From Desulfobulbaceae bacterium (GTDB taxonomy: Bacteria > Desulfobacterota > Desulfobulbia > Desulfobulbales > Desulfocapsaceae): 64,000 bases of DNA. Of this stretch, positions 3 through 21,611 are shown piece after piece. The notes under the pieces were generated by a model. The model searched no databases and was not told the DNA's origin. It was given only the letters and a program-made list of their open reading frames with translations. Position 1 is the stretch's first letter; every line of letters starts with the position of its first letter. The stretch is taken from the NCBI GenBank assembly GCA_024636345.1, contig JAGXHG010000004.1, forward strand, positions 124,001-188,000, read 5' to 3'. Made by a program: the position numbers and the translations under genes.

Positions 3-344
3 CTTTTTTTCAAACAGGCACTTGCAGCAGACAATCATTTCTGTCGCACCCTGAAGGGTCAAAGCGACAGAGTAGGCAAGAACATAGAACTTGACCGGGT
101 CCCTTTTTCCAGCGAAAGCATGAGCGTCAGACCATTCAGTGGAAAGACATTCACCCTGCACGGCCAACTCCCTGACACCAGCGGCCTCATCTCGGTCCAA
201 GGATATTTTATCGACACCGACACCATCCACGTGACAAGATACCACCAGCATAACCAATACAGGACAATGACCACATCCCTTGGACTCCTGCTGATCGCAG
301 CCTTATGGTTTCATTCCCTGATATTTAGGAGCCGTACGAAATAA
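3..344 (+). CDS. C-terminal part of a membrane-anchored protein (5' end outside window)
   Basis: The frame is open from the first bases of the window to a TAA stop, so this is the 3' end of a longer gene; the ATG at 120 is internal. The visible 113 residues are a polar, probably extracytoplasmic stretch followed by one C-terminal membrane segment (about 20 residues starting TSLGLLLIAALW) and a short basic tail, RSRTK, expected in the cytoplasm. The stop codon lies inside a copy of the dispersed hairpin repeat, so the last residues are encoded by repeat sequence. I do not recognise the family. A gene for a secreted protein follows in the same direction after 120 bp. Confidence 0.6.
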   Translation, partial: LFFKQALAADNHFCRTLKGQSDRVGKNIELDRVPFSSESMSVRPFSGKTFTLHGQLPDTSGLISVQGYFIDTDTIHVTRYHQHNQYRTMTTSLGLLLIAALWFHSLIFRSRTK

Positions 345-11817: not shown

Positions 11818-12372
11818 TCAATAGGGTTTCTTCCCTAAAAAATTGCCGGGAGGATCATAGTTACAGACAACAATCAAATTGCCCCGGCACACCCGGGTGG
11901 CACAGCCGATCTGTCTGGTATCCCGCCAGACCAGCTGGGTGTAATGACCAACATTTGCAAAACGAGAGGCTTGAATCGTACCTCCCCTATAGTTGGATTT
12001 TTCTTTTGCCCAGGCCATGACCGCGTCCAGTGTTCCATAATGGCTGGCGGTGCCAATAAAGATATTCTCGCCAAATTTTTGTTGCCACTTGCCTGAGCGG
12101 GGACGATGTTCAATCCCACATCGGGAAGAGGCAAGATGATCAGCCCATCGCTGTGCATAAGCAGCCAGTTCCTCTGACCAGCGCAGAGGACCGACACCGA
12201 CTTCCGCGCGGATTTTATTGTGCAGGGCAACAATCTTCTCGGCTTCCGACAGACTCACACGGGAACCAGACAAATCACTATGCACTATTGGACTCTCAGC
12301 AGCACTCAGAGAGAGGCCCTGCAAAAGAAACACTGCCACAAACATCATGACCAGACACCGCAAATGTTGCAT
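11818..12372 (-). CDS. Secreted CAP/SCP domain protein
   Basis: 184 residues from the ATG at 12372, with a signal peptide (CLVMMFVAVFLLQGLSLSAA). The CAP domain has the ordered motifs LHNKIRAEVG, ELAAYAQRWADHL, FGENIF, VMAWAKEKSNY, HYTQLVWRDT and VVCNYDPPGNF, including the conserved histidines of the CAP cavity. Four cysteines may form two disulfides. Bacterial members are secreted and mostly of unknown function. It resembles the plant PR-1-type subgroup more than the YkwD type because of the HYTQLVW motif. Confidence 0.9.
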   Translation of the reverse strand: MQHLRCLVMMFVAVFLLQGLSLSAAESPIVHSDLSGSRVSLSEAEKIVALHNKIRAEVGVGPLRWSEELAAYAQRWADHLASSRCGIEHRPRSGKWQQKFGENIFIGTASHYGTLDAVMAWAKEKSNYRGGTIQASRFANVGHYTQLVWRDTRQIGCATRVCRGNLIVVCNYDPPGNFLGKKPY

Positions 12373-12492
12373 ATCTTCACGTACGCTCAATCTCTTTTTA
12401 CTCTTCTCCAATCAAACAATTTCTTCTTTCTTTCGCTTATTCCCACAGCCGACAAAGTCGCGCCAAAGAAACAGCTCTATCAAAAAAAGCCG

Positions 12493-13303: not shown

Positions 13304-15586
13304 TCAACCTTTGCCTGGATAGCTGAAGACCAGTTTTTTCGCCTGTAGATCCACTTGGACCTCGCCGCCCCGGGTCAAAGCGCCAAAGAGGATCTCGTCG
13401 GTGAGCACATCGCCAATCTCGGTCATAATCAGTCGCCGAAGCGGCCTGGCGCCATAATCAGGATCATAGCCCTTGGTGGCCAGATACTTGCGGGCGCGGG
13501 GACTCAAGGTAATGATCACCTTCCGTACTGCCAGTTGCGCCTGTAATTCAATAATCATCTTGTCTACGACTTTTTCCACCGCTTCCGCGTTCAAGGCCCC
13601 AAAAGAGATAATAGCGTCAAGCCGGTTACGGAACTCGGGAGCAAACAAACTCTTGACCGCCTTCTGACCACCCCCCTTTTTCTCGGTCACAAAACCAATA
13701 GGCGTGCTGCTCATCTCACGGGCGCCGGCATTAGTGGTCATGATCAGAATCACATTCCTGAAATCGGCCTTCCGCCCCGAGTTATCGGTCAGGGTCGAGT
13801 GATCCATCACCTGAAGAAGAATGGAGAAGATATCAGCATGAGCCTTTTCGATTTCATCGAGCAACAGCACCGAATAAGGATGCTTACGGATGGCCTCGGT
13901 AAGTAGACCGCCCTGATCAAAGCCAACGTAGCCTGGAGGCGCACCGATGAGACGGGCCACCGCATGTTTTTCCATGTACTCACTCATGTCAAAACGCTCA
14001 AAATGGATGCCCAGGGTCTGGGCCAACTGCCTGGCCACCTCGGTTTTGCCTACTCCCGTGGGTCCGGCAAAAAGAAAACAGCCGGTGGGTGACTGCGGAT
14101 GACCAAGACCGGCCCGCGCCCTTTTGACCGCGCCCGCCACCGTGTCAATGGCAGTATCTTGACCAAAGATCACTCCTTTCATAATTGTGGCCAGTTCTTT
14201 TAAGGAACCAAGCTCGGCATTTGATCCACTTTTGGCCGGAACCCTGGCTATACGCGAGACCACCGCCTCTACATCCCGGACAGTGACCGTCCGGCCAATC
14301 TTGCCGGCCAGACGAAAGCTCGAACCCACTTCATCAAGGACATCAATAGCCTTATCCGGCAGAAAACGGTCGTTAATATAGCGGTCAGCCAGTTCGGCTG
14401 TGGCTTTGATGGCCGTTCCGGAATATGAGACCTGATGGTGCTGCTCATATTTCTGTTGCAGGCCCTGAAGGATCAGTCGGGTTTCCTCAACGCTCGGCTC
14501 TTCGACATCGATCTTTTGAAAACGACGAGAAAGTGCCCGATCCTTTTCGATATGGTTTTTATACTCTTCATAAGTGGTTGAGCCGATACAGCGCAGAATC
14601 CCGGACTGGAGGGCGGGTTTCAACAGATTGGAGGCATCCATGGAGCCGCCACTTGTAGCGCCAGCCCCGACAATAGTATGAATCTCATCAATAAAGAGGA
14701 TGGCGTTTTTCTTCCGCTCCACCGCCTCCACCACACCCTTCATCCGTTTCTCAAAATCACCCCGATATTTGGTGCCGGCAACCAGCGTCCCCATATCGAG
14801 GAGATAAATTTCCACGTCCTGCAGGAGATCTGGAACCAGCCCTTTCTTGCCTGCAGCCCGAGCCGTACTATCATCATGAATGCGCAGGGCAAGCCCTTCA
14901 GCAATGGCAGTCTTGCCAACACCAGGCTCTCCTACCAGCAGGGGATTATTTTTCTTACGCCGACAGAGCACCTGCATCATCCGGCTCACCTCCAAATTCC
15001 TACCGATAAGGGGATCAAGGTGACCTTCTGCCGCCCGGCGCGTCAGATTAACCGTAAATTCCTGAAGGATTTTCTCGTCCTTATCGGCCTCCCTGTTCTC
15101 AACTCCCGGTTCAGGGCCAGCAGGCATCCGGGGCAACGGCTCCTTCTGCAAGCCTTCAGAAGGCAGCCCATGAGAGATATACTCGATCACGGCCAGACGG
15201 CCGACCCCTTCAGAACCGAGAAAATAGACAGCATGAGACTCCGCCTCAGAAAAAATGGCCGCCAGGACATCACCACTGTCCACCTCGTTCTTGCCACAGC
15301 TCTGGACATGTGAGACCGCCCGTTGCAATACCCGGTTGAAGGCCACGGTCTGGGCCGGTTCACTGGGACCAACAGCACCGAGGGTCGGTAACTCTCCTGT
15401 AAAGAAAGCCTCCAACCGCTGTTTCAGCTTTTCAATGGAGCCTCCACACTGACTGATAATATGAGTTGTTAACTCATCATAGAGCAGACCATAGAGCATA
15501 TGCTCCACGGTCACATATTCATGCCTGTAGCTCTTTGCCTCTCTGATCGCTCTGACCAGTGCTGTTTCCAATGTCTTGCTTAACAT
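13304..15586 (-). CDS. clpA: ATP-dependent Clp protease ATP-binding subunit ClpA
   Basis: 760 residues from the ATG at 15586, which has GGTGAG upstream; the frame is open further but without support. It has an N-terminal Clp-N double repeat (residues 1-140), D1 AAA+ with Walker [10 protein letters not shown] and Walker [10 protein letters not shown], and D2 with Walker [10 protein letters not shown] and [11 protein letters not shown]. The [14 protein letters not shown] pore/sensor region is present. ClpA unfolds substrates and feeds them to ClpP; clpP is not in the window. It is preceded by clpS, the standard pair for N-degron degradation. Confidence 0.95.
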
Positions 15587-15643
15587 TTTCTCACCATATT
15601 CCCGTAAGCAGAGAGGAACAATCCCCGCTGAACACATATTTAA

Positions 15644-15958
15644 CTATATTTTTTCCATGGAACAACGCAAGGGAAAGCCATTTTTTCTGGCCAGATGATG
15701 CACCAGTTCCACCTTGGTCTCACAGATCTCCAGAGTATAAACCCCAGCCACCCCTATCCCTAGCTGATGCACGTCAAGCATGATTTTTGTCGCCACCGAC
15801 GTTGATTTTCCAAAAATATTTTCCAGGATCAAAACCACAAATTCCATAGAGGTATAATCATCGTTATGCAGCAATGCCCTGTACAGAGAAGGCTCACGAA
15901 TCTCCTCTTTGTCTCTGGTGGCAACCGAATCCTGATGCTCATTTTTTATCTTGCTCAT
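15644..15958 (-). CDS. clpS: ClpS adaptor of ClpA
   Basis: 104 residues from the chosen start. The diagnostic LLHNDDYTSMEFVVLIL motif, with the N-degron-contacting asparagine and aspartates, and IMLDVHQLGIGVAGVY are both conserved. ClpS delivers proteins with bulky N-terminal residues to ClpA. It is 57 bp upstream of clpA on the same strand. A variable, charged N-terminal extension precedes the core, as is usual for the family. Confidence 0.95.
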   Translation of the reverse strand: MSKIKNEHQDSVATRDKEEIREPSLYRALLHNDDYTSMEFVVLILENIFGKSTSVATKIMLDVHQLGIGVAGVYTLEICETKVELVHHLARKNGFPLRCSMEKI

Positions 15959-16047
15959 TTTTTCAACACACAATCAGGCTGTTCATTTATTTTAAGCCGC
16001 TGTAAAAAATTAACATGACCATATATATAATTTTCCGAGGCGGTATA

Positions 16048-16100
16048 AGGAGCCGTAACGAAATAGATATAAATGGCCACGTTATTTCGTAACGGCTCCT
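16048..16100. repeat. Dispersed hairpin repeat, copy 3 (best-preserved)
   Basis: Perfect 17-base arms, AGGAGCCGTAACGAAAT (16048-16064) and its complement (16084-16100), flank a 19-nt loop containing TGGCCA. The right arm overlaps the TAG stop codon of holA. There is no T tract after either arm, so a simple intrinsic terminator is unlikely. It sits in the 140-bp gap between holA and clpS. Confidence 0.85.
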
Positions 16101-17466
16101 AATGTTCCGTTTTCTTCCCGGCAAGCATGGTAAGAAAAAGATCTTCCAAGAGCAGGGTTGGTGGCAGAGGTGATCCTTTGAGCTGGAACTCAGTCTTCAA
16201 AAGAAGGGCCATCCACTCCTTCAACACCGGACAGGAAAACTCTTCCGCTTTGCTGAAACTCATGAACAGGGCATATGGATGACCTTTCAACATCTCAGCC
16301 CATTCCCCCTTTTCCTTAAGGGCAGGCAAATAGATATCTTGAAACTGTCTGGCCTGCATCCCCCGCTGCCAGGACGGACTTGCCTGCAACTGCATGGAAC
16401 GAAACAGGAGCAACCTTCTTATATAATTGCGCATGGTGGCCAGAATAGCAAGGCCATGAACTCCATTTTCCACCAGACGGTTAAGAATTACCAGAGTAGA
16501 GGCTACCTGTTTTCTCCCAAAGGCCTCAGTCAATTCAAAGAGGGCGTCCTCTCTAGTCCGACCCACCATTGTCTCGATATCCGCACAACTGATCAACGGC
16601 CGATCCTGAGTAAACAGGGCCACCTTCTCCAGCTCCATGACCACTGCCACCGGATAAAAGCCTACCCGTTCAAAAAGCATCTCCATGGCCCGCGGCTCAA
16701 TCTTTTTCTGGAAGGGGGCAAGAGTCCTGAGAGCCAACTCACGCAAAACCTCTTTCTGATTCTTCTGCGCCGCAGAACTGGCTCCAGCTTCAATAGAACA
16801 ATCAACAATCAGGCCATTTTTCTTGATGAAGGTGTAAAGTTGTTTTCTCTTATCAACATTTTCAGCACTGAGAAACAGAAAATTGTATCCCGGCAAACCC
16901 TTCTCAAAGGCGGCAAGATAGCGATCAGCAAGGGTTGCAGCCCCACCACCCCTGACTCCTGTTTGCGGCCCGGACTCGGCGAGCAGCTTGTCAACCCAGC
17001 TCAGATCGCCACCGGGCTTGGCAAAACTGAACAACTGCTGCCACTGATCAGGGCCAATATCAGAAAAATTTTCATCCGCGTCAAGTGTGGCCAGGCCTGC
17101 CAGGCTCTGGAGCTGTAGACGGGCTGGCCCTGGCCGCCCCGCCTCATGGGCCAGCGTTGCCTTATTCCAGATATCTTTGGCCACCGCCCTGGAATGAAAA
17201 AGACGGCTGTCCGTCACTCTGTAGATCTGCCGACCAGGCAAAAGGCTAAAATTAATAACCTGACCAAGGGTTCGGCTCGGATCCTCCTGATCTCCATCAA
17301 TGGGATGTACCGTTCCCCCTTCCTTCTGGAGGAGAGCCTGCTGCAGCATATCAGCCGCCTCACGGCACAGGTATCTCTCCCCGAAAAAGAGAACTACCCG
17401 CTCCTGCTGCTCCACACCCCTTTGACCAAGCCAGGATGTCAGTTCGTTACGTTTAATCAGGGCCAT
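16099..17466 (-). CDS. holA: DNA polymerase III subunit delta
   Basis: A 455-residue protein, longer than E. coli HolA (343). It shows the delta-family layout: an N-terminal AAA-like domain without a working P-loop (VVLFFGERYLCREAADML), a middle segment with FLFLSAENVDKRKQLYTFIKK, and a C-terminal clamp-loader helical domain (DALFELTEAFGRKQVASTLVILNRL, LLLFRSMQ). An insert around residues 100-170 accounts for the extra length. Delta opens the sliding clamp in the clamp-loader complex. Its ATG lies 2 bp after the stop of the large exported-protein gene, so the two are almost certainly in one transcript. Confidence 0.88.
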   Translation of the reverse strand: MALIKRNELTSWLGQRGVEQQERVVLFFGERYLCREAADMLQQALLQKEGGTVHPIDGDQEDPSRTLGQVINFSLLPGRQIYRVTDSRLFHSRAVAKDIWNKATLAHEAGRPGPARLQLQSLAGLATLDADENFSDIGPDQWQQLFSFAKPGGDLSWVDKLLAESGPQTGVRGGGAATLADRYLAAFEKGLPGYNFLFLSAENVDKRKQLYTFIKKNGLIVDCSIEAGASSAAQKNQKEVLRELALRTLAPFQKKIEPRAMEMLFERVGFYPVAVVMELEKVALFTQDRPLISCADIETMVGRTREDALFELTEAFGRKQVASTLVILNRLVENGVHGLAILATMRNYIRRLLLFRSMQLQASPSWQRGMQARQFQDIYLPALKEKGEWAEMLKGHPYALFMSFSKAEEFSCPVLKEWMALLLKTEFQLKGSPLPPTLLLEDLFLTMLAGKKTEH

Positions 17467-17468
17467 GG

Positions 17469-20066
17469 TCAGTCAACATTCACTCCTGCCGCTCGCTCTG
17501 TTTCTGTGCCATTCTTCTGGGCAGCCTGTCCCGCGGTCTGTCCACTGTTCTGTTTCTCAACCTGTTTTTGATCCATGATTTTGTGCAAAATGGCAGGCAG
17601 CGAACCAGGTTGCAGATATTCTTCCCCCATCCCCTGTTTAAAGATGATCGCCGCCTGATTACTGACATCTTTCCAGCTCAAATTAGCGGAACGGGAAGCA
17701 ACCAGCTCAAACAAAAGCTGATTATAAGGATCATTAATAATGGCCTTGCCGGTCCCCACTGTGGCCAGGATATCCACCTTGTTATGAAAGAATGTGGCAA
17801 GCTCTGAATAAACCCGGATTCCACCACAGGAACCAAGGCTCAAAAAACGTTGTTTGCTGACCAGATCCGCCGGGACAATAGCCCCGGACTTCAACAGCTC
17901 CTCCAGAGGATCAAGTAACTGTTCTTTGCGCCAGTAACTATGACCGCGCTGGGCAAACATCTCATGCCCGCCCTTCAAGAACTGTTTGAGAAGCTGCTGT
18001 TGTTGACTCACATCATGATACACGACAACAGAATGGGAGATCTCAATACCATTCATGTGCTTCACCCAGTCGACAACCAGCGGATACCTGACCTGCAGCT
18101 TATGAATCTGATCAAGATTTTGTGCAGGGGCCCCAAGAAGTGCTTTCAGCTGCGCCACCGCGGCACGATCACGAACGCTCTCTGCCGCCAGTAAAGAAAA
18201 AGAGTTGGAAATCCGCGGTCGATAGCCATGGGCCATCAGGGTCTGGCAATTGGAACGGAAGGACTGGCTTCCATCGTCATCACTATGAAAGACAGACAAA
18301 CTGCTCAGTTTTCCATCCATCTTCCACTGAGAGAAACTGGTCTTCACATATTGGTCAAGAGGGATCGTGCCATACTCAGACATCATCAGCCTGATTCTGA
18401 TCTTATCCACCTCGCCAACCAATTGCGGATACTCCTGGATATAATATTGGAGGATTACCCGCAACTGGGTGCTGAACACCGCATTTTTATCACGAATTGC
18501 GGTCAGCATCTTGGCAATAAGGTAGGTACGCGTCTGCGGCTCGATGGTCTGAAGCAGGGTCATAAAGGTGGCGGAAAAGAGGATCAGGCTGTTTTCATCC
18601 TGAAAAGCTGATTCAGCCACCAGGTCAAGGACCTGTTCCTGCTCCCGCACCTGGTCCGGGAAAAAGAGGGTGAGCTTCCCTTTCTGGGCCAGACTGATGA
18701 TAAAATCGGAGACATGGGTGTTCTGCGGATCAATGTTTTTGAGAAAGACCAGAAGGTTACCACCAAAACGGGTATCAATTCTTTCTTTTAAGACCGGCAC
18801 CAGGATATCACGAAAGGATGAATCATAGAGATCACTGCCCCGGGAAAGAAGAATATAGGCATTGGCGGTGGTGCAATCTTTTGCCGCCTGAAGCCGGGCT
18901 GCCGATGTGGCTCGACGCAGGACGCCAATGGCCTCCCCCCTGCCTCTGGCAAGAGCAGCCGAGAATTCACTGTTGAACCGGGCCCGCACCTTTGCGTCAA
19001 GACGCTGAAAGATCTCACGGAGATAACTGGCAGGACAGGAGGACAGGACTTTGATCCCCACCTCTTGACCACTTGCTTCGGTGATATCATGCAGATTATT
19101 GACCTTCCAGATCAGATGATCTCCGGCATCAAAAAATGCCTGGAGCAACAAGCTTTTATCCTTGGCCTGATACGAAAAAAACTGCGCTTCCTGCACCTCC
19201 TGCGCAACAGCGAAGTAATTGGTAATCCAGGAAAGTGAGCTTGCGGGCGTAACTCCAGCAAGCTGGAACAAGGAACGTGCATTCCAGGCATCTGTATTTG
19301 ACAGCCTTTGCAGATGGTTCATATTGAGCAAGGCCGACTCCGGGGTCATCGCAATGATCTTACAGCTCTTTTCGGTGGCCCAGCACTGTTTTTCAGTCAT
19401 TCGATTAATGAGCAGCAATCCCTTGTCAACGGTCTCTACTGTTTGCCCCGGCACTTCCAGGAAGGCCTTGAAAGCCCAGAGGGCAGGTTCCTTCAACGAT
19501 GCCAGCCTATCTATCAGCTCAAGCATTACAGACGGGTTCAGATTTTGGGCCTGACCAATAGCCATAGCCACCCGGGCTGAAACATAATTCAGAGTAGCAA
19601 GTTTTTCCAGCAACTTCCAGCAAGCCTCAGCATCCACTCCGGAGAGCGTGGAAAAATGTTCCAGAACAGCAATATAGCCAAAAGAGATATGGGACTGTGG
19701 CAGCCGGTGCAGGACTTCCAGCACCCCCTCAGCAGTCATAGAGGGTAAACTACCAAAAATCCTGAGAGCCCTCATATTGGTATAACTCAAGTCTTTGACC
19801 AATTCTTTGGCCTGAGCGAGTTGCTTCGCATCCATCTTCACCTTGGCCAAGGCCTCCATCGTCTGTATAGAGGCTTGTTCCGTGGCAAGATCGCTACTGA
19901 TTTTACCGCTACCACTACCTAAACCAGCAAGACTTCCTATCGGCCACGACAAGAACATAACCAACACAAAAACCAACAGTAGTCCCTCACCACCCATCAA
20001 CTTTTTCAACTTTTGCATTCCCACTTCATCACTTTTATGTTTACTATTCCCTGGCATCAAAATCAT
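17469..20066 (-). CDS. Large exported protein with C-terminal caspase-like (clan CD) fold candidate
   Basis: 865 residues; no family recognised by name. A basic N-terminus and one hydrophobic segment (about 29-48) mark a signal peptide or membrane anchor. Residues about 60-560 are helical, repetitive and probably solenoid-like. From about 588 the pattern changes to alternating strands and helices: SVFHSDDDGSQSF (591-603), SVVVYHD (679-685), a histidine in AQRGHSYW (H709), and a hydrophobic strand ending in a cysteine in FLSLGSCGGI (C747), then DILATVGTG (765-773). Strand-His then strand-Cys, 38 residues apart, is the caspase/CHAT/gingipain order. The tail is polar and glutamine-rich. Catalysis is inference. 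It abuts holA, with clpS-clpA beyond. Confidence 0.6.
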   Translation of the reverse strand: MILMPGNSKHKSDEVGMQKLKKLMGGEGLLLVFVLVMFLSWPIGSLAGLGSGSGKISSDLATEQASIQTMEALAKVKMDAKQLAQAKELVKDLSYTNMRALRIFGSLPSMTAEGVLEVLHRLPQSHISFGYIAVLEHFSTLSGVDAEACWKLLEKLATLNYVSARVAMAIGQAQNLNPSVMLELIDRLASLKEPALWAFKAFLEVPGQTVETVDKGLLLINRMTEKQCWATEKSCKIIAMTPESALLNMNHLQRLSNTDAWNARSLFQLAGVTPASSLSWITNYFAVAQEVQEAQFFSYQAKDKSLLLQAFFDAGDHLIWKVNNLHDITEASGQEVGIKVLSSCPASYLREIFQRLDAKVRARFNSEFSAALARGRGEAIGVLRRATSAARLQAAKDCTTANAYILLSRGSDLYDSSFRDILVPVLKERIDTRFGGNLLVFLKNIDPQNTHVSDFIISLAQKGKLTLFFPDQVREQEQVLDLVAESAFQDENSLILFSATFMTLLQTIEPQTRTYLIAKMLTAIRDKNAVFSTQLRVILQYYIQEYPQLVGEVDKIRIRLMMSEYGTIPLDQYVKTSFSQWKMDGKLSSLSVFHSDDDGSQSFRSNCQTLMAHGYRPRISNSFSLLAAESVRDRAAVAQLKALLGAPAQNLDQIHKLQVRYPLVVDWVKHMNGIEISHSVVVYHDVSQQQQLLKQFLKGGHEMFAQRGHSYWRKEQLLDPLEELLKSGAIVPADLVSKQRFLSLGSCGGIRVYSELATFFHNKVDILATVGTGKAIINDPYNQLLFELVASRSANLSWKDVSNQAAIIFKQGMGEEYLQPGSLPAILHKIMDQKQVEKQNSGQTAGQAAQKNGTETERAAGVNVD

Positions 20067-20147: not shown

Positions 20148-21071
20148 ATGCAACAGCGCCATTCCCAATTTTTCCCCTCTCTCTGCCTGGTTCTGGCCAT
20201 GTTTCTCTGGGGAAGTTCTTTTGTTGCCATGAAACTGGCCTTTCAGGATTATCACCCTATGGTAGTCATCTTTGGCAGAATGTCGGTTGCCTCACTGGCC
20301 TTCCTCTGTTTTTTACCCAGATTTCGAACCATCCATATCCGCCGACAGGACTGGCATCTCTTCGCTATCATGGCGTTAAGCGAGCCCTGCCTTTATTTCT
20401 TTTTTGAGGCGCTTGCCCTGCAAAACACCAGCGCATCTCAGGCATCACTGATCACCGCCATGCTGCCGCTACTGATCACAATTGCCTCAGTCTGCTTTCT
20501 CAGTGAAAGAGCATCGAAGCAAACCCTGTTCGGTCTTTTTCTGGCAATGGGCGGGGCCATCATCCTCAGCCTTGGAGGATCAGCGAACGAACAGGCACCA
20601 GCGCCCCTGCTCGGCAATTTCTATGAATTCATGTCCATGATCTGCGCCACGATCTATACCATCACCGTCAAACGACTCACTGTTTTCTACCCGGCTTTCT
20701 TTCTCACCGCTGTCCAAGCCTGGATCGGAGCCCTCTTCTTCGCACCCTTCCTCACCCTGCCCCAGGTTCCGCTGCCCGTGTCCTTTCTCCTTGTACCGAT
20801 GTCAGCCATCCTTTATCTGGGACTGGCAGTCACTCTGGCCGCTTACGGCCTCTATAACTACGCACTGGCACAGATGGAAGCGAGCAAAAGCTCAATCTTC
20901 ATCACCCTGATTCCCCTGTTCACCCTGCTGCTCAGTCGGATTCTCTTTAATGAAACATTTACACCATGGCAGTATTTTGGCGGATTCACTATATTTTTTG
21001 GTGTATCGCTAAGCCAGGATTTTTTCAGGATTTCAACAGGAAGGTTATTTCAAAAAAGAACAAAACCGTGA
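20148..21071 (+). CDS. EamA/DMT-family transporter
   Basis: 307 residues with ten predicted membrane segments in two EamA repeats: the first has FLWGSSFVAMKLAFQDYHP at its start, the second begins near residue 160 (NFYEFMSMICATIYTITVKRL). The family exports or imports small metabolites; the substrate cannot be read from sequence. It is transcribed divergently from the large exported protein, 81 bp away, and is followed after 30 bp by the rubredoxin-tailed protein gene. Confidence 0.88.
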   Translation: MQQRHSQFFPSLCLVLAMFLWGSSFVAMKLAFQDYHPMVVIFGRMSVASLAFLCFLPRFRTIHIRRQDWHLFAIMALSEPCLYFFFEALALQNTSASQASLITAMLPLLITIASVCFLSERASKQTLFGLFLAMGGAIILSLGGSANEQAPAPLLGNFYEFMSMICATIYTITVKRLTVFYPAFFLTAVQAWIGALFFAPFLTLPQVPLPVSFLLVPMSAILYLGLAVTLAAYGLYNYALAQMEASKSSIFITLIPLFTLLLSRILFNETFTPWQYFGGFTIFFGVSLSQDFFRISTGRLFQKRTKP

Positions 21072-21101: not shown

Positions 21102-21611
21102 ATGGACAAACAACTCCAGAAACAATTAGAAAAACTTTTTTTAGAAATGACACGCGGTGCTGCCCGCAAAAAAATCTACGCCCTGCGAGCACGGCAGGAT
21201 GGCAACAAGGCTCTTGCCCGCCTCTTTACAGCCATAAGCAGCTCAGAGTCCGCCCAAGCCGCCCGTTTCCTCATTCAACTTCGCGGCCAGACAGGCAGCA
21301 GCGAGCAAAATTGCTCTCTGGCCTTCAACGATGAAATTCCTCTTTCCATCACCCTGTACGAACAGGCGACGAGGCAAGCGGACGACATTCACAACAAGGC
21401 CATGCACAGCGCCTGCTCCCAGTCTGCCAGAGTCCAGCGTATGCATCTGAATCTAAAAAAGAAACTGGACAGAAGAAATGGCCAGGACGAAGAGAGTAAG
21501 ATCAGTTATCACATCTGTCAGTTCTGCGGATTTATCATGGAAAACAGGGCCCCGGAAAACTGCCCCATATGCACTGCCCCGGCCAGCCGCTTTCAGGTGA
21601 TCACTGCCTGA
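21102..21611 (+). CDS. Rubrerythrin-like protein with C-terminal rubredoxin domain
   Basis: 169 residues. The C-terminus is a rubredoxin-type iron site, CQFCGFIMENRAPENCPIC, in the form seen at the end of rubrerythrins (YHICQFCGFI...APASRF). The N-terminal 130 residues are helical, but I do not see the full set of ExxH diiron ligands of a canonical ferritin-like domain. The protein may bind only the mononuclear iron. A role in peroxide or oxygen defence is plausible for an anaerobe but not shown. AGGAGC lies about 8 bases upstream of the ATG. Confidence 0.7.
   Translation: MDKQLQKQLEKLFLEMTRGAARKKIYALRARQDGNKALARLFTAISSSESAQAARFLIQLRGQTGSSEQNCSLAFNDEIPLSITLYEQATRQADDIHNKAMHSACSQSARVQRMHLNLKKKLDRRNGQDEESKISYHICQFCGFIMENRAPENCPICTAPASRFQVITA

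Follow-up and report, generated by a model that had tools for sequence, protein, structure and literature searches.

Members of clan CD have the caspase/haemoglobinase fold, in which the strands are arranged in the order 2-1-3-4, a histidine follows strand 3 and a cysteine follows strand 4. The gingipains (C25) are exported bacterial peptidases, and separase (C50), which is eukaryotic and intracellular, has a long helical part before its caspase-like domain; we know of peptidases with a regulatory solenoid only from inside cells. According to the excerpted text of a review, PMC4357240, RgpB (D163), MALT1 (D365) and TbMCA2 (D95), all basic-P1 enzymes, have an acid on helix 1. Csx29, a partner of Cas7-11 with two CHAT domains, carries a TPR domain ahead of its protease region and is allosterically switched, as stated in the excerpted text of PMC10028731.

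Here we analyzed a gene for an 865-residue protein in a 64,000-nucleotide stretch of DNA from a Desulfobulbaceae bacterium (the window). Its layout is similar to that of Csx29, in which helical repeats are followed by a C-terminal His/Cys peptidase region; unlike Csx29, the protein carries a signal-like sequence, lacks a CHAT match and shows only weak, stray TPR matches (given below), and no link to Cas7-11 was found among the window neighbors examined with Pfam. In its described layout, helical and then caspase-like, separase also resembles it, whereas the protein studied here is bacterial and probably exported. The gingipains are exported and have the acid on helix 1, with a dyad spacing in their profile of 31 versus 38 here, but, to our knowledge, they have no solenoid. 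With clan CD as a whole (C14, C25, C11, CHAT), the protein shares a histidine that precedes the cysteine and a strand-like segment predicted just before the cysteine, and it has acids after its first predicted strand, as in the members that cut after Arg or Lys. It differs from the clan in having no significant sequence or profile similarity to it, in its His-Ser and in the helix predicted before the histidine, and the fold is a candidate one.

Results

The gene and its neighbors

The reading frame lies on the minus strand, and its stop is separated from the ATG of holA by two bases (CC); Pfam places holA, then clpS, then clpA after it. An earlier note, made from the letters of the window, had given no strand, and its positions, its length of 865 residues, the 2-bp distance to holA and the clpS-clpA pair beyond are all borne out by the coordinates and Pfam. 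The frame is a genuine gene, beyond chance, because most of the homologues found are complete and uninterrupted, and every row examined has both H709 and C747 (Table 1). Within the tblastn matches of the ten loci checked, in-frame stops occur only at query positions 837 and 840, close to where the protein normally ends. Copies split over two frames, as judged by search coordinates, are present in G006 (L013 and L033) and on contig C47 of G622 (L287), and sequencing error and decay are indistinguishable in these cases. An origin from a phage or mobile element was rejected, as there was no plasmid or phage match and no confirmed relative among viral contigs.

Table 1 Features of the locus, with positions in the window
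Feature	Position	Strand	Basis
865-residue probably exported protein, alpha solenoid and His/Cys domain	17469..20066	(-)	open frame; homologues in the order
Hydrophobic signal-like sequence, residues 17-47, from the second ATG (M17) to the putative cleavage site between SLA and G	19926..20018	(-)	hydropathy, 32 sequences
Paired helices about 32 residues apart, residues 58-300, sequence variable	19167..19895	(-)	AlphaFold2; invariant-column count
Second helical half, residues 301-565, far better conserved	18372..19166	(-)	helices in the AlphaFold2 model; 32 invariant columns
Candidate catalytic domain, residues 566-838	17553..18371	(-)	27/272 columns invariant over 117 rows; candidate fold
D596-D597-D598-G599, after the first predicted strand	18270..18281	(-)	D596, D598 in 114/114 rows; D597 in 112/114
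R707-G-H709-S-Y-W712, candidate catalytic histidine	17931..17948	(-)	all six residues in 117/117 rows
S743-L-G-S-C747-G-G749, candidate nucleophile cysteine	17820..17840	(-)	C747, G748 in 117/117 rows
D765-I-L-A-T-V-G-T-G773, predicted strand and glycine turn past the cysteine	17748..17774	(-)	G771, G773 in 117/117 rows
holA, DNA polymerase III delta subunit	16099..17466	(-)	Pfam DNA_pol3_delta_C, 41.9 bits, cut-off 27
clpS	15644..15973	(-)	Pfam ClpS, 109.3 bits, cut-off 23
clpA	13304..15637	(-)	Pfam Clp_N, AAA_2, ClpB_D2-small

Downstream of clpA (11818-12411, minus strand) a CAP/SCP-type secreted protein is encoded (Pfam CAP, 79.1 bits), adjoined by a VTT-domain-like protein that scores 20.2 bits, below the 33.9-bit cut-off. 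On the other side, the gene is flanked by a divergent EamA transporter (20148-21071, plus strand) and a protein with a rubrerythrin rubredoxin-like domain (21102-21611, plus strand), one or both of which stay beside it in several relatives.

The sequence reading had tied the protein by position to replication and proteolysis genes. The position itself is conserved: holA comes next, in the same orientation, in 43 of the 45 rows (42 of 44 distinct genomes) that had flank at hand, a subset of the 117 genomes, and its estimated start falls at -64 to +124 bp relative to where the matched part ends. Translational coupling of the gene with holA is likely. However, the gene sits away from holA in G038 and G051, both of family f3, and 17 genomes have holA and no copy of the gene, among 20 holA loci that came from genomes picked mainly for lacking it. 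The block is therefore stable and the gene an optional part of it, and a functional tie is unproved; an encounter of an exported protein with the replication machinery or ClpSA is unlikely. Near holA, clpS was recognized in 11 of the 17 gene-lacking genomes, a count that ORF picking can lower by hiding clpS, and the cluster upstream of holA in G020 and G036 resembles, by its protein starts, the cluster beside the gene in G019, G027 and G032.

Distribution

In a sample of 218 genomes of the order, each 80% complete or better, homologues were found in 117 genomes (86 of the 148 high-quality ones) and in 29 of 67 genera, all 117 belonging to families f1, f12 and f3. The order is probably Desulfobulbales, to which the Desulfocapsaceae belong. 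A sample of the phylum gave 13 gene-bearing genomes out of 394, all from the window's order; five further genomes of the order, among those listed, lack the gene, which leaves about 376 genomes outside the order without a match. When the domain alone was searched in 395 genomes, 12 of the 13 matches fell inside the order, and the one outside (21 positions, E 0.09) is taken as chance. A whole-genome search of relatives found the gene in 28 of 58, and a scan for short peptide patterns in 84,980 species genomes, able to detect close relatives only, returned 15 loci (one of them, L015, a fragment in the assembly that also contains L004). These are recorded as Desulfocapsa, Desulfocapsaceae or Desulfobulbaceae, apart from one 'Deltaproteobacteria' and one 'Desulfoarculaceae' record.

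One genome of the same genus (G016, 99% complete) lacks both the gene and any holA match at E 0.001; most other genomes of its genus have the gene, and a gap or misplacement in the assembly may be the cause. Gingipain-type Peptidase_C25 scored above cut-off at G005:C155, G005:C90 and G008:C36, in two genomes of the genus, so gingipain-type and His/Cys-domain proteins can coexist.

Signal-like N-terminus and helical solenoid

The protein had been described as a cell-surface protein behind a signal or anchor sequence. Hydropathy supports the signal-like segment: hydrophobicity peaks in the 19-residue window 29-47 (mean Kyte-Doolittle 2.35), and 19-residue windows starting past residue 50 reach a mean of 1.0 at most. 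The best 15-residue N-terminal window exceeds 1.8 in 30 of 32 sequences, the window's included; the mature part also has a 15-residue window above 1.8 in 16 of the 32, never above 1.97. An AxA-like site follows the N-terminal hydrophobic segment in most homologues, and M17 is invariant in a 14-sequence alignment (A1), so we infer a start at M17 and cleavage between SLA and G. The protein is thus probably exported, but 'cell-surface' was too strong a term, the periplasm being as likely a destination. At the other end, the tail (839-865) varies, and many distant homologues have a short one or none.

In an AlphaFold2 model from 14 sequences (mean pLDDT 67.3, pTM 0.54), residues 58-530 are mainly helices with most ten-residue blocks above pLDDT 70 (78-96 for the blocks of 61-300); the helices are paired, repeating about every 32 residues as far as residue 300, and more helices continue to 565. 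Residues 58-530 are accordingly modeled as an alpha solenoid, in agreement with the earlier note, which had pictured the first 560 or so residues in this way. Conservation rises along the chain, with 2 invariant columns in 69-300, 32 in 301-565 and 45 in 566-838 among the 32 sequences. The conserved residues of 301-565 include N323, H326, E335 and YDSSFR (414-419), and H326 is the only invariant histidine of the whole protein besides H709. This gradient would fit partner binding by a variable outer solenoid and packing of a conserved inner part on the active site.

Conservation of the candidate catalytic domain

AQRGHSYW contains His709 and SLGSCGG contains Cys747, 38 residues later, and DILATVG spans 765-771, all where the sequence reading had placed them. 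In a first alignment of 32 distinct sequences including the window's (33 rows; the duplicate genome L057 was dropped), H709 and C747 are kept throughout, and C747 is the only cysteine column at 90% or above in the whole protein. The test was widened to 117 rows, made up of 114 of the 117 gene-bearing genomes of the order together with G006, G010 and L014, and excluding the partial matches G023, G567 and G521; as L014 is the same genome as G472, the rows stand for 116 distinct genomes. Identity of the domain to the window's protein drops to 41% (among the 113 rows aligned over more than 200 positions), and R707, G708, H709, S710, Y711, W712, G745, C747 and G748 are unchanged in every row. H709 is the sole invariant histidine of the ten in the domain and C747 the sole invariant cysteine of the two; D596 and D598 are present in every row that has a residue there, and D597 in all but two. 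Conservation of the pair among homologues, which the earlier note had named as a check on its reading, thus extends to 116 of 116 distinct genomes and argues for a catalytic or strictly structural role for H709 and C747, whatever the fold.

The GHS motif (G708-H-S710), whose serine is itself invariant, could instead be the nucleophile elbow of an alpha/beta serine hydrolase in which the cysteine is structural. However, the elbow motif is GxSxG and needs a small residue at 712, where all 117 rows have Trp, and the invariant C747 would be left unexplained. No alpha/beta-hydrolase family is among the Pfam matches of the protein or its relatives, the only peptidase listed being a chance-level Peptidase_M24 (E 0.28, one of 28 members), and we regard a serine hydrolase as very improbable. 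A non-enzymatic envelope scaffold, whose conserved tail would bind a ligand or metal, is improbable too, though somewhat less so: the acid cluster and the His/Cys pair could hold a metal and no activity is known, yet the protein has one conserved cysteine without a second conserved thiol, and the pair is retained in every row examined.

Three further roles for these motifs were rejected. A disulfide role for C747 is out, since the 32 sequences have no second conserved cysteine; selenocysteine at 747 is excluded in all 117 rows, which encode Cys by the standard code; and GTGKA (771-775) is not a Walker A motif, as some homologues have Arg or Leu in place of K774 and the first glycine is absent.

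Comparison of the domain with clan CD

The last third of the protein had been read as caspase-like. A conserved catalytic-type histidine followed by a cysteine, as in clan CD, was found in all 117 rows (116 distinct genomes), with a spacing of 38 as against 31 (C25), 45 (CHAT), 48 (C11) and 51 (C14) measured on the family profiles. In a catalytic-window scan, the pair 709/747 ranked 1 (C14), 1 (C25), 13 (C11) and 10 (CHAT) among 51,740 pairs, and with the H and C columns omitted its ranks fell to 278, 1473, 2293 and 5218 of 51,740; twelve scans of known clan CD families with one another, run as controls, gave ranks of 1 to 89 (of 10,920 to 35,295). The best local hhalign match to C25 aligns RGHSYW with the catalytic GHG, with H709 on the catalytic histidine, over 25-27 columns and without significance. 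Against C25, the core scores 17.4, above every one of 30 column shuffles (maximum 16.5), C25 being one of four families so tested; the C14 score (13.1) is not above the shuffles (mean 13.5) and the C11 score (16.5) is below the shuffle maximum of 18.5. For CHAT, the score of 21.4 (shuffle maximum 21.1, probability 3.0%) belongs to a match out of catalytic register, and an alternative CHAT alignment was rejected because its histidine is two columns out of register.

Profile comparison of the domain with C14, C25, C11 and CHAT by hhalign gave probabilities of 0.2-1.6% and P-values of 0.03-0.26, a trimmed core gave 3.0% at most, and a deeper profile (112 domain sequences) brought no gain (0.2-0.9%). 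Among the known families, C14 matches CHAT at 94%, C25 at 30% and C11 at 4.9%, and the other pairs reach 1.9% (C11-CHAT), 1.0% (C25-C11) and 0.2% (C25-CHAT); hhalign is therefore a weak yardstick, as undisputed clan CD pairs such as C25-C11 fail as well. In the AlphaFold2 model, H709 and C747 are among the 147 of the 273 domain residues whose stretches fall below pLDDT 50, and the ten-residue blocks of 601-670 have pLDDT 51-80. A crude propensity prediction gives strands near 591-593, 662-667, 681-684, 740-743 and 764-771, and helix, not strand, at 699-706 right before H709, which is followed by Ser, where clan CD usually has His-Gly. In summary, a caspase-type fold of clan CD is plausible but unproved: the conserved His/Cys pair speaks for the earlier reading, and the non-significant hhalign comparison and the predicted helix before H709 against it.

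The same data bear on a thiol enzyme that uses the His/Cys site in another fold and for other chemistry, such as acyl or amide transfer in the envelope, with the solenoid still positioning the substrate. Invariance of the pair would argue for a catalytic or strictly structural role in that fold too, and the many invariant columns (27/272), the non-significant profile similarity to clan CD and the helix predicted before the histidine are all consistent with it. On the other hand, the order of H before C, the spacing and the best-pair rank favor clan CD; in papain-like and GATase folds C precedes H, and the element that follows the histidine in clan CE is a strand instead of a helix. We consider such an enzyme unlikely, though it is the alternative we take most seriously.

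Library, structure and literature searches

The earlier statement that no described family has this layout agrees with our searches, as no credible match was found in Pfam, NCBIfam, PADLOC, PHROGs or PDB sequences. The full protein gave no match up to E = 10 in the first three, one chance-level match in PHROGs (E 0.31) and none among PDB sequences, where the domain profile also had none at E up to 10 and the full-length profile had two weak ones (E 0.73 and 2.6). Pfam scans of family members gave scattered weak matches, the best being TPR_EDRF1 (E 0.0047, one of 27 full-length members) and DUF87 (E 0.0092, one of 28 domain members), and Peptidase_C14, C25, C11 and CHAT were not among the matches listed for either set; the best NCBIfam match of the members had E 0.043. 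A fold search with the full AlphaFold2 model returned 209 PDB matches, none at E 0.001 or better, and the best 50 of the 209 are headed by a designed nanocage and large helical proteins, which is uninformative on the domain.

In one literature collection, the family was unnamed in the listed titles and abstract openings on clan CD, CHAT and Desulfocapsa proteases, nothing on holA-clpS-clpA was related by title, and no paper linked Desulfobulbales with caspase, or caspase-like proteins with the periplasm.

Discussion

With moderate confidence, we favor an exported, solenoid-gated, clan-CD-like cysteine peptidase that would cut after Arg or Lys. The protein would be exported, probably to the periplasm, where the solenoid would fold over the catalytic domain. 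Binding of a partner or substrate by the variable solenoid may then open the active site, access to which would be controlled by the N-terminal alpha solenoid, and the C747 thiolate would cleave with the help of H709, each residue sitting, on this reading, at the end of a strand and the two forming the putative dyad. The allosteric control by helical repeats in Csx29, as given in the excerpted text of PMC10028731, provides the model for such gating. Cleavage after Arg or Lys is proposed because D596 and D598 follow the first predicted strand and might line the S1 pocket; alternatively, the two residues could form a calcium site.

The broader proposal, which we hold tentatively and somewhat less firmly than the peptidase assignment, is that these proteins constitute a new clan CD family, in which a solenoid-gated protease of the separase or Csx29 kind was relocated out of the cytoplasm and acts on envelope proteins, cleaving them after Arg or Lys. 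The occurrence of this putative family in a single order holds for the samples searched. If the proposal is true, a peptidase family unnamed in the searched libraries would have its regulatory solenoid located in the cell envelope, and, with the gene in 117 of the 218 sampled genomes of the order, which has Desulfocapsa among its sulfur-cycling members, the substrate of the peptidase would belong to an envelope process that is widespread there.
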